This document shows, one piece after another, positions 4,073-5,302 of a stretch of 48,041 bases of DNA (position 1 is the stretch's first letter; each line of letters begins with the position of its first letter). The stretch comes from Clostridia bacterium. GTDB taxonomy: Bacteria > Bacillota > Clostridia > Oscillospirales > Acutalibacteraceae. A model generated the notes under the pieces. It was not told the origin of the DNA. It saw only the letters and a program-made list of their open reading frames with translations, and searched no databases. The stretch covers positions 1 to 48,041 of the forward strand of contig JAFQCR010000038.1 in the NCBI GenBank assembly GCA_017416345.1, read 5' to 3'. The position numbers and the translations under genes were made by a program.

Positions 4073-4103
4073 AAGGCTTGACCGAGCGGTCAAGCCTTTT
4101 CTG
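4071..4103 (+). terminator. intrinsic terminator after the AraC gene
   Basis: AAAAGGCTTGACC-GAGC-GGTCAAGCCTTTT gives a 13-bp perfect stem immediately after the stop codon with a T-rich end. Confidence 0.8.
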
Positions 4104-4140
4104 TATAGAAACTGCCGTTCTCACAAAACACACCTTTACT

Positions 4141-4295
4141 TGTAGGAGCGATTCACGAATTGCCTACCTAAAGACGGCTTTGCGGAAGGCATAAATGCCT
4201 TCCCTACAACAAACCTGTCAGATCTTTGTAGGGCAGGGATTTATCCCTGCCGCCGCAAGCCGGCTTTCGGGAGGGCACAGAGGCCCTCCCCTACG
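4141..4295. repeat. REP palindrome cluster (four copies)
   Basis: Four palindromes with GTAG heads: forward GTAGGAGCGATTCACGAATT (4142), reverse at 4184-4207 (arms AAGGCA/TGCCTT), forward GTAGGGCAGGGA (4228-4251) and reverse at 4269-4294 (arms GGGAGGGC/GCCCTCCC). The 4184-4207 copy is identical over 24 bases to copies at 19446-19469, 41801-41824 and 42082-42105. Nothing else is seen between 4104 and 4455. Confidence 0.75.
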
Positions 4296-4455
4296 ATTGG
4301 GAAGCCATGCTCCGTATAAACAAAAAATCGTTCAACGGAAGCGCTCGAAACGCCGCCTTTGAACGAACTAACAAAATCAGTATACCATATTCAAGCAAAA
4401 ATGTCTACTGACAGGATAAACAAAATATTTTTTAGATATTTATCTATTCTGCGAA

Positions 4456-4484
4456 TAGACATTTGTCCACGTGTCGTGTATACT
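4456..4484 (+). promoter_or_regulatory. promoter of the orphan repeat-bearing transcript
   Basis: TAGACA (4456-4461) and TATACT (4479-4484) with 17-bp spacing, predicting a start near 4491. The -35 box is one arm of an inverted pair, AATGTCTA (about 4399) and TAGACATT (4456), which might bind a regulator. Confidence 0.6.
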
Positions 4485-4490
4485 GTAGTC

Positions 4491-5166
4491 AGAAAGAAAA
4501 CAGAAGCAACAAAAAACCGTGAAGTAGTCGGGAATGAAAGGGGACTGATTCCGATGAAAACTGAATTTGAGCCACCCGCACATTTGGAAAAATTTATGAA
4601 GAAGGGAATGAGTCCAAAGAACAGGTAAGCTCTGAACTCAAAACAAATCTTTGAAAAGGACCAAACTCCAATGTACAGTTAAAGCGTAGATCTAAAACAG
4701 GATTTCTGCCGTAACACTACGAAAGGAACCAAGTCCGATGTACAGTTAAAGATCAAACTCAAACCAAAAAAACAGCAAAGGAATGAGTCCGAAGAACAGT
4801 TGAGTTAAAAACCTCATCCAAAATTTTTAAAAAGGAATGAGTCCGAAAAACAGTTAAGTTTGAACTCAAAAATCTTTAAAACAGCTTTGGTGTTACCGAT
4901 GAACTAATAGTGGATCCAAGTTTGAGCGTTATATGAATAGGTTATAAACCTTGCGTCAGATCGAAAGATTTTATAGGTGAATCCGATGTACAGTTTAGAG
5001 TAACCCTCCCGATGAGGAGCGAATCCAAGGCGCTGACAATTTAATAGTGTAAACGACTTTAATATATAAAATATGTAAATCTGTAGAAAGTCAGAGGTAC
5101 GTCAAAATAGAGATCGTAACATGACGCCCTTCAAAAAGTGAGTAAAACTTTTTGAAGGGCTTTTTT
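4491..5166 (+). ncRNA. candidate ~675-nt structured RNA with tandem repeats
   Basis: This unit has its own promoter and a strong terminator but no frame longer than about 25 codons. It contains at least seven degenerate copies of a core shaped AGGA-N4/5-GTCCGA-N3/4-ACAGTT at about 4540, 4604, 4656, 4722, 4778, 4832 and 4976, plus two CCGATGA...ATCCAAG variants at about 4895 and 5009. GGA and TCC can pair as a mini-hairpin in each copy, and downstream AACTC segments can pair with GAGTT. A 24-codon frame (4554-4628) and several 4-7 codon frames such as MSPKNS and MYS arise from the repeat, so a peptide role cannot be excluded. Size, isolation and closeness to a tRNA recall large ornate RNAs such as ROOL, but I cannot recall that consensus and do not claim a match. 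Confidence 0.5.
5126..5166 (+). terminator. strong intrinsic terminator of the orphan transcript
   Basis: GCCCTTCAAAAAG (5126-5138) pairs perfectly with CTTTTTGAAGGGC (5148-5160), loop of nine, followed by TTTTTT. Confidence 0.9.
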
Positions 5167-5204
5167 GATTTTGTTACACACAACAATAAATTGACCATAA
5201 ATAA

Positions 5205-5280
5205 AAAGATTCTTCACTTCGTTCAGAATGACAGGGTTTAATTAGCCGTGTCATTCTGAACCGCAGGCGAAGAATCTTTA
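5205..5280. repeat. palindromic AAGATTCTTC element, copy 1
   Basis: A 76-bp imperfect palindrome: AAAGATTCTTCACTTCG and TTCAGAATGACA in the left arm, TGTCATTCTGAA and CGAAGAATCTTTA in the right. A second copy lies at 26237-26313. Both sit between converging transcription units; read on the minus strand this one ends in a T-rich run, so it may also terminate the AEC transporter gene. Confidence 0.75.
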
Positions 5281-5302
5281 GTTGTTATATTAATTAACGT
5301 GA

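Follow-up and report, generated by a model that had tools for sequence, protein, structure and literature searches.

The window, meaning the whole 48,041-nucleotide stretch of DNA analysed here, is contig 37 of a 2.47 Mb genome that is 96% complete, and the presence at 4456-5166 of a unit that is single-copy in that genome is confirmed. The parts of the unit listed in this paragraph lie on the forward strand. The unit opens with a promoter of sigma-70 type, TAGACA-17-TATACT (4456-4484), followed by a first site (4537-4628) at which a Shine-Dalgarno (SD) sequence, AAAGGGG, and a spacer precede an ATG at 4554; the leader reading frame that begins there, MKTEFEPPAHLEKFMKKGMSPKNR, ends with a stop at 4626-4628 and contains a Pro-Pro pair kept via synonymous codons. 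The remaining sites are of two kinds, which were collected with fixed regular expressions: the A pattern is GG, 0-4 nt, TGAGTCC, N and AA[AG], and the B pattern is GG, 4-9 nt, [AT]CC, [ACG] and ATG. Sequence, regular expression and in-frame stop count together identify the first A site, AAGGGAATGAGTCC A AAG with an in-frame TAA at 4626-4628 (4602-4628); two B sites, AAAAGGACCAAACTCC A ATG TAC AGT TAA (4654-4682, minigene 4671-4682) and AAAGGAACCAAGTCC G ATG TAC AGT TAA (4722-4749, minigene 4738-4749); two more A sites, AAAGGAATGAGTCC G AAG AAC AGT TGA (4777-4803) and AAAGGAATGAGTCC G AAA AAC AGT TAA (4831-4857); and a B site, GGTGTTACC G ATG AAC TAA (4889-4907, minigene 4899-4907). A further B site, TAGGTGAATCC G ATG TAC AGT TTA GAG TAA (4974-5003, minigene 4986-5003), matches the regular expression and has an SD-like dG of -12.7, and a degenerate ninth site, GAGGAGCGAATCC A AGG CGC TGA (5014-5036), was missed by the regular expression and recognised by eye (SD-like dG -12.5). 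The B frames of the window accordingly encode MYS, MYS, MN and MYSLE, and the A frames before their stops read AAG-AAC-AGG, AAG-AAC-AGT and AAA-AAC-AGT. A 3' region (4880-5125) contains blocks that alignment shows to be kept in a congener, G002 (e.g., CTGTAGAAAGTNAGAGGTACGTCAAAATAGAGATCGTAACAT), and the unit is closed by an intrinsic terminator (5126-5166) consisting of a stem of 14 pairs (5126-5160) and six T.

A preliminary description of this DNA had listed the promoter with its 17-bp spacing, a 13-bp terminator with six T, and at least seven copies of a repeat 45-75 nt apart. The promoter stands and is backed by its conservation in other loci; the terminator is present with its six T and a stem counted here as 14 pairs; and the copies number eight by regular expression with a ninth by eye (5016-5036), at a spacing of 53-87 nt between start-codon positions. 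Judged by consensus alone, neither boundary stands out in the unit (three promoter-like sites against 2.8 expected, and one terminator against 0.8), and both were accepted because they are conserved among loci. The same hexamers at the same 17-nt spacing, 99-101 nt before the end of the first ATG, occur in the window and in loci L009, L010, L031, L032 and L033, with TTGACA/TATAAT found elsewhere. Two palindromic sequences flank the unit: a 16-nt inverted repeat (94%) directly past the terminator (5221-5261), which resembles a small dispersed palindromic element, and a long imperfect palindrome 5' of the promoter (4179-4255), which gave weak, sub-threshold matches to microRNA models on both strands.

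Distribution and Novelty of the RNA Family

The preliminary description called the unit an orphan, a label that a search of related Clostridia genomes, as had been proposed there, removed by placing it in a family of 58 non-redundant loci, the window included. When the 696-nt unit was compared with 60 relatives, a full-length counterpart was found in the congener G002 (69% identity over 686 nt, E 6e-72; locus L107, record JAGBXM010000033, a Clostridia MAG from yak colon), and a second genome, G029, matched the 5' part alone. A covariance model of the 5' part built from three sequences (R1) matched 21 of 300 genomes of the family at E<=0.01, of which 19 have an array and two (L044 and L046) do not, and a sequence-only model from 17 of the R1-matched genomes (R2) matched 49 of 394 genomes of the order at the same threshold; 19 of the 29 new loci fetched from these have at least two sites. 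The exact A-site pattern TGAGTCCRAARWACAGTTAA was found in 27 stretches of a species-genome collection, 26 of them from Clostridia, all with an array, and one from Methylococcales, without. At E<=0.001, a class-wide search gave 11 matches in 391 genomes, four of these inside the order, and a phylum-wide search two in 249, the genome of the window among them. No array was found outside the order, loci L113-L119 and L122 lacking any two-site cluster. The 58 loci belong to one order, in which two-site arrays occur in seven family-level groups (f1, f10, f14, f17, f19, f23, and f26) and three-site arrays in five (f1, f17, f19, f23, and f26); Ruminococcus bromii YE282 and Caproiciproducens galactitolivorans BS-1 are among the carriers. 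Of three congeners, two (G001 and G003) gave no match to R1 at E<=0.01, so that the RNA is not essential. A mobile or viral origin was considered and rejected, five matches on viral contigs having no second site beside the match.

The comparison with Rfam that the preliminary description had called for, including ROOL, GOLLD, and raiA, yielded a tRNA alone in the window at the gathering score, nothing over the unit, and nothing credible within 4100-5300 when the threshold was lifted. Across 20 loci at the gathering score, no model matched over the arrays, with 6S, c-di-GMP-I, and tRNA found elsewhere in the loci; nearby tRNAs, to which the earlier reading had drawn attention, are no general feature. 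No published description of such an array was found in a search that covered few subscription papers and few supplements. For a free-standing RNA in which a succession of one-to-three-codon reading frames is conserved, there is no Rfam model and no description in the literature searched, and the suggestion of a new RNA family is borne out by this and by the relatives in other genomes.

The suggested likeness to ROOL, GOLLD, and raiA found no covariance-model match in the window or in the 20 loci. A large structured RNA of that kind would agree with the folding energy of 4490-5166, which lies 4.15 sd below 20 shuffles in a segment that includes the terminator hairpin, but this explanation is very improbable given that no Rfam model matches, repeat number and length vary freely, and covariation in the hairpins is weak. 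The GGA/TCC mini-hairpins proposed for each copy have limited support, the third pair being A-U or U-A in 68 of 118 unique B sites against 57.4 expected (p=0.015), and they were rejected as the main signal on that count.

Composition and Boundaries of the Arrays

Sites were clustered by allowing gaps of up to 130 nt, which gave 64 non-redundant arrays with 200 sites in the 58 loci; 40 arrays have at least three sites and 48 contain an A site. Six loci (L102 and L108-L112) were excluded from this set by hand as chance occurrences. Shuffled copies of all 128 fetched loci, in three passes, gave 0.3 clusters of at least two sites per pass and 0.00 of at least three, and 47 control loci (172,409 bases) gave one two-site cluster, so that chance can be excluded as the source of the arrays. 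Abundance of SD-like sequences is less telling: the window RNA has nine, above all of 40 shuffles (mean 4.5, maximum 8) but not above all of 40 other segments (mean 5.8, maximum 11), and SD density was set aside as stand-alone evidence. In one locus (L052:1280-1800, genome G432) a unit of leader plus A site is present three times in tandem.

Successive sites are never closer than 47 nt. The 136 gaps fall at 47-57 nt (65), 58-90 nt (42), and 91-122 nt (29), the upper bound following from the rule used for clustering. Because a ribosome spans approximately 30-40 nt, all of the sites on one RNA could be filled simultaneously.

A promoter score of at least 9.5 is reached within 200 nt before the first site in 38 of the 64 arrays, compared with 16.0 in shuffles, and a terminator lies within 170 nt past the array in 36 of 64, compared with 0.5. 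In a wider look over 560 nt, made without shuffles for comparison, a promoter scoring at least 10 is present in 49 of 58 loci and an exact TTGACA-17-TATAAT (12/12) in 17 of 58. The architecture of promoter, leader in about half of the loci, A and B sites, and terminator is well supported at the level of sequence.

A gene for a DUF1292 protein (Pfam E 9e-18 for the copy in L106) lies upstream of the array and divergent from it in 16 of the 58 loci. Among the 20 loci scanned with Rfam, the five in which 6S RNA was found (L080, L082, L085, L089, and L106) show the order array, DUF1292, 6S, and DUF1292 adjoins the array in 11 further loci. This setting is missing from the window, so that its locus must have been moved or rearranged. 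The locus L062 (1510-1762) differs in layout, having two sites, no terminator found, and then, at the contig end, the beginning of a gene whose N-terminus resembles a signal peptide, possibly a cis-regulatory use.

Start-Stop Reading Frames

The preliminary description stated that the unit has no long open reading frame, a remark that misses the very short frames, which prove central. In a B site, an SD sequence and a spacer lead to an AUG that is followed by mostly zero to two further sense codons and a stop, whereas an A site has the same geometry but AAG or AAA in the place of the AUG, with an in-frame stop a short way downstream. Both patterns end at ATG or at AAG/AAA, so the sequence downstream is free to vary. 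Among unique downstream sequences, a stop within three codons was found in frame at 48 of 61 A sites, against 13 and 1 in the other two frames, and at 84 of 129 B sites, against 24 and 14; within five codons, the corresponding values are 57 of 61 against 22 and 11, and 91 of 129 against 36 and 39. The excess persists at three codons when the commonest downstream type, xACAGnT, is removed (A sites, 20 of 26 against 9 and 1; B sites, 71 of 111 against 22 and 13). Ten B sites consist of an AUG with a stop immediately after it. A minigene in the strict sense, in which a stop follows the AUG after a few codons and only in the frame of that AUG, is found at the B sites; the A sites share the stop and have AAG/AAA for the AUG. 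Initiation of A sites at an upstream NUG was considered and rejected: the SD would then be 0-2 nt from the start, which is too close. The tracts surrounding the A sites are purine-rich, and an A, G, or T precedes UGAG in 61 of 62 of them. It is very likely that the loci carry a conserved array of tiny reading frames, and its repeats are best read, from their sequence, as ribosome-binding sites.

Complementarity to the 16S rRNA 3' End

The profile of the A sites, GAAAGGGGUGAGUCC-A-AAG-(A/U)ACAGUUAA, contains a purine-rich SD at a fixed distance. The 16S 3' end, confirmed in two relatives as GCGGCTGGATCACCTCCTTTCT, has the complement AGAAAGGAGGUGAUCCAGCC, which the A core matches with one unpaired G, and an SD complementary to the 16S 3' end was found at the distance expected of a start codon. 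The A sites have the longest match to the 16S tail of any kind of site (GAAAGgGGUGAgUCCAA against the complement GAAAGGAGGUGAUCCAG). Their predicted duplex with the tail has a median of -16.0 kcal/mol, compared with -10.8 (sd 3.3) for dinucleotide shuffles, 7.4% of which reach the median; the pattern itself fixes TGAGTCC, so this statistic supports selection for 16S pairing without proving it. For B sites the median is -13.3 against -9.3 in shuffles, 10.5% of which reach it, barely stronger than ordinary starts at about -12.5: uncurated comparison ORFs of at least 200 aa, each taken at its most favourable start, gave medians of -12.8 (41 in the window) and -12.4 (83 elsewhere). The share able to form at least 12 pairs with the 16S tail is 85% for A sites, 55% for B sites, and 32% for long-ORF starts. 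The start of fliJ in L076 (Pfam E 6.5e-10), an ordinary gene, uses AAAAGGGGATGATTCCAATG, a close look-alike of the first site.

The preliminary description had offered a multi-site decoy for either a protein or the 16S 3' end, and in-frame stops together with the predicted duplexes favour the second option. A sponge that captures, through GG...UGAGUCC, either a small RNA or an RNA-binding protein would share its tandem copies, strong promoters, and stand-alone transcript with the CsrB-type sponges, but it would give the conserved in-frame stops no role, and it is quite improbable. CsrA, the obvious candidate and the sole protein looked for, was ruled out, csrA being found in none of the 24 carriers searched and in all of the controls (E. 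coli, B. subtilis, and T. maritima). The 11-mer GGACTCATTCC, the complement of the A core, occurs in the one genome examined, that of the window, solely within the array, and a trans partner of the A core other than rRNA was rejected for want of any exact copy there.

The Leader Peptide

In 31 of the 58 loci, reading the ORFs by eye gave a short opening frame that has a strong SD and encodes Pro or Pro-Pro, with two more added by L061 and L105; in 27 of 58 no Pro-bearing leader was read (L047, L054, L055, L064, L070, L082, L091, L099, and L106 among them). The 34 peptides compared, 22 with Pro-Pro and 12 with a single Pro, were picked for having Pro, so that its frequency proves nothing. Representative leaders are MKTEFEPPAH (the window), MKNETPPAHFIK, MKDTPPESNLK, MKMEAEPVQ, and MIQLEDNPPDV. 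Outside the R. bromii group, 27 of the 34 have an acidic residue before a Pro at position 5-8; the other seven, which come from the R. bromii group, carry RSLPPN close to their end and no acidic residue directly before the Pro-Pro. Loci of R. bromii type (L081, L083, L084, L090, L096, L104, and L105) also carry approximately 300 nt with conserved blocks of their own between the leader ORF and the array. In the 22 Pro-Pro pairs, the first codon is CCA in 11, CCG in seven, and CCC in four, and the second is CCC in 13, CCG in five, CCT in two, and CCA in two; the Pro residues are thus kept while their codons vary synonymously. Conservation extends over the first half of the leader only, the C-terminal half shifting in frame and length. 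Codon-like conservation is seen for this short peptide and not for any one protein frame across the region, the latter being what the preliminary description had named as counting against its reading.

These features bear on whether the unit is a small mRNA whose product is the leader peptide or a set of two- or three-residue formyl-peptides. The strong first SD, the conserved Pro-Pro, and the in-frame stops would suit such a role; the variable C-terminal half would not, nor would mini-peptides that differ between sites (MYS, MN, MF, MRI) and at some sites reduce to AUG-stop, and a coding function seems improbable.

The site of the leader and the first A site are able to pair (GGACUGAUUCC with GGAAUGAGUCC in the window). 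Over 19 pairs, pairing of the first site (type 1) with its own A site stands at -9.89 against -8.82 for permuted partners (0 of 500 permutations), relatedness between loci being ignored. Early acidic residues next to proline, such as EPDP of MgtL, pause or eject ribosomes (PMC11282234), and as sensors in MgtL they lend some plausibility to a leader-peptide-controlled regulatory RNA, in which the minigenes would keep ribosomes on the transcript as a shield against Rho or ribonucleases and function would reside in a peptide-sensed signal or in the 3' region. Codon-level constraint on the leader, the blocks conserved in the 3' region of G002, and the pairing of leader site and A site all fit this account. 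However, no regulated gene is evident downstream of the arrays that end in a terminator (36 of 64), and shielding has no need of an AAG class with extended 16S matching, which leaves such a regulatory RNA somewhat unlikely.

Proposed Function

The reading preferred here, to which we give a probability of roughly 45%, is that of a minigene array RNA that would load and idle ribosomes without making protein. Under this proposal, 30S subunits would bind each site; at B sites ribosomes would start and then stop at once, and at A sites they would bind or stall, unable to start. In this way a single RNA would hold or idle several ribosomes along with initiator tRNAs, a number that could reach about nine in the window, and would buffer or sequester ribosomes as a translational counterpart to 6S RNA. 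The in-frame stops of the A sites are left unexplained by the proposal, because these sites lack a usable start codon at the proper distance. The ability of the leader site to pair with the first A site makes it possible that pausing or drop-off on the leader peptide gates access, ribosome pausing on the leader opening or closing the first trap as a switch. A more specific version, in which up to about nine extended SD sites, half of them minigenes and half start-less traps, hold ribosomes while the leader senses ribosome stability (Mg2+, EF-P, or ABC-F state), is possible but doubtful. As a whole, the interpretation given in the preliminary description is partly supported.

If the ribosome-holding reading is true, starving gut bacteria could store ribosomes on a transcript for rapid release, and the protein factors of ribosome hibernation would be joined by an RNA dedicated to occupying ribosomes in the way that 6S RNA occupies RNA polymerase. 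Such an RNA would account for a conserved intergenic transcript of abundant gut and rumen bacteria and provide a natural tandem array for the study of start-stop translation, SD strength, and leader-peptide pausing. Even if sequestration fails as an explanation, there remains a conserved string of one-to-three-codon frames for which neither an Rfam model nor a description was found in the literature searched.

Comparison With Known Systems

Minigenes such as lambda bar RNA and AUG-stop elements are single elements consisting of an SD, an AUG, a few codons, and a stop. The B sites have the same make-up, but here two to eight or more sites stand in tandem in a dedicated transcript and are mixed with AAG sites. 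CsrB and RsmZ are sponge RNAs with tandem GGA-containing motifs, a strong promoter, a terminator, and no protein, all of which the arrays share; unlike those systems, the 24 carriers searched lack the target protein, CsrA. Leaders of the MgtL type, which act through intrinsic ribosome destabilization and EttA-dependent pausing, resemble the leader described here in having acidic residues and proline in the first codons (EPDP in MgtL and E-x-E-P here), as do 27 of the 34 peptides chosen by eye; MgtL, however, governs a downstream transporter gene, whereas here minigenes and, in many loci, a terminator follow (PMC11282234 for MgtL). Mammalian "ribosome sponge" lncRNAs, which are eukaryotic and have no SD array, share the notion of ribosomes being occupied by an RNA (PMC7932693). 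The last parallel is with 6S RNA, which adjoins arrays in 5 of 20 loci, its model RF00013 having no match over the arrays in these 20. 6S RNA, a mimic of an open promoter, binds RNA polymerase; the array sites mimic translation starts and have no sequence relation to it, and the likeness lies in the proposed logic, that of an RNA occupying a core machine.
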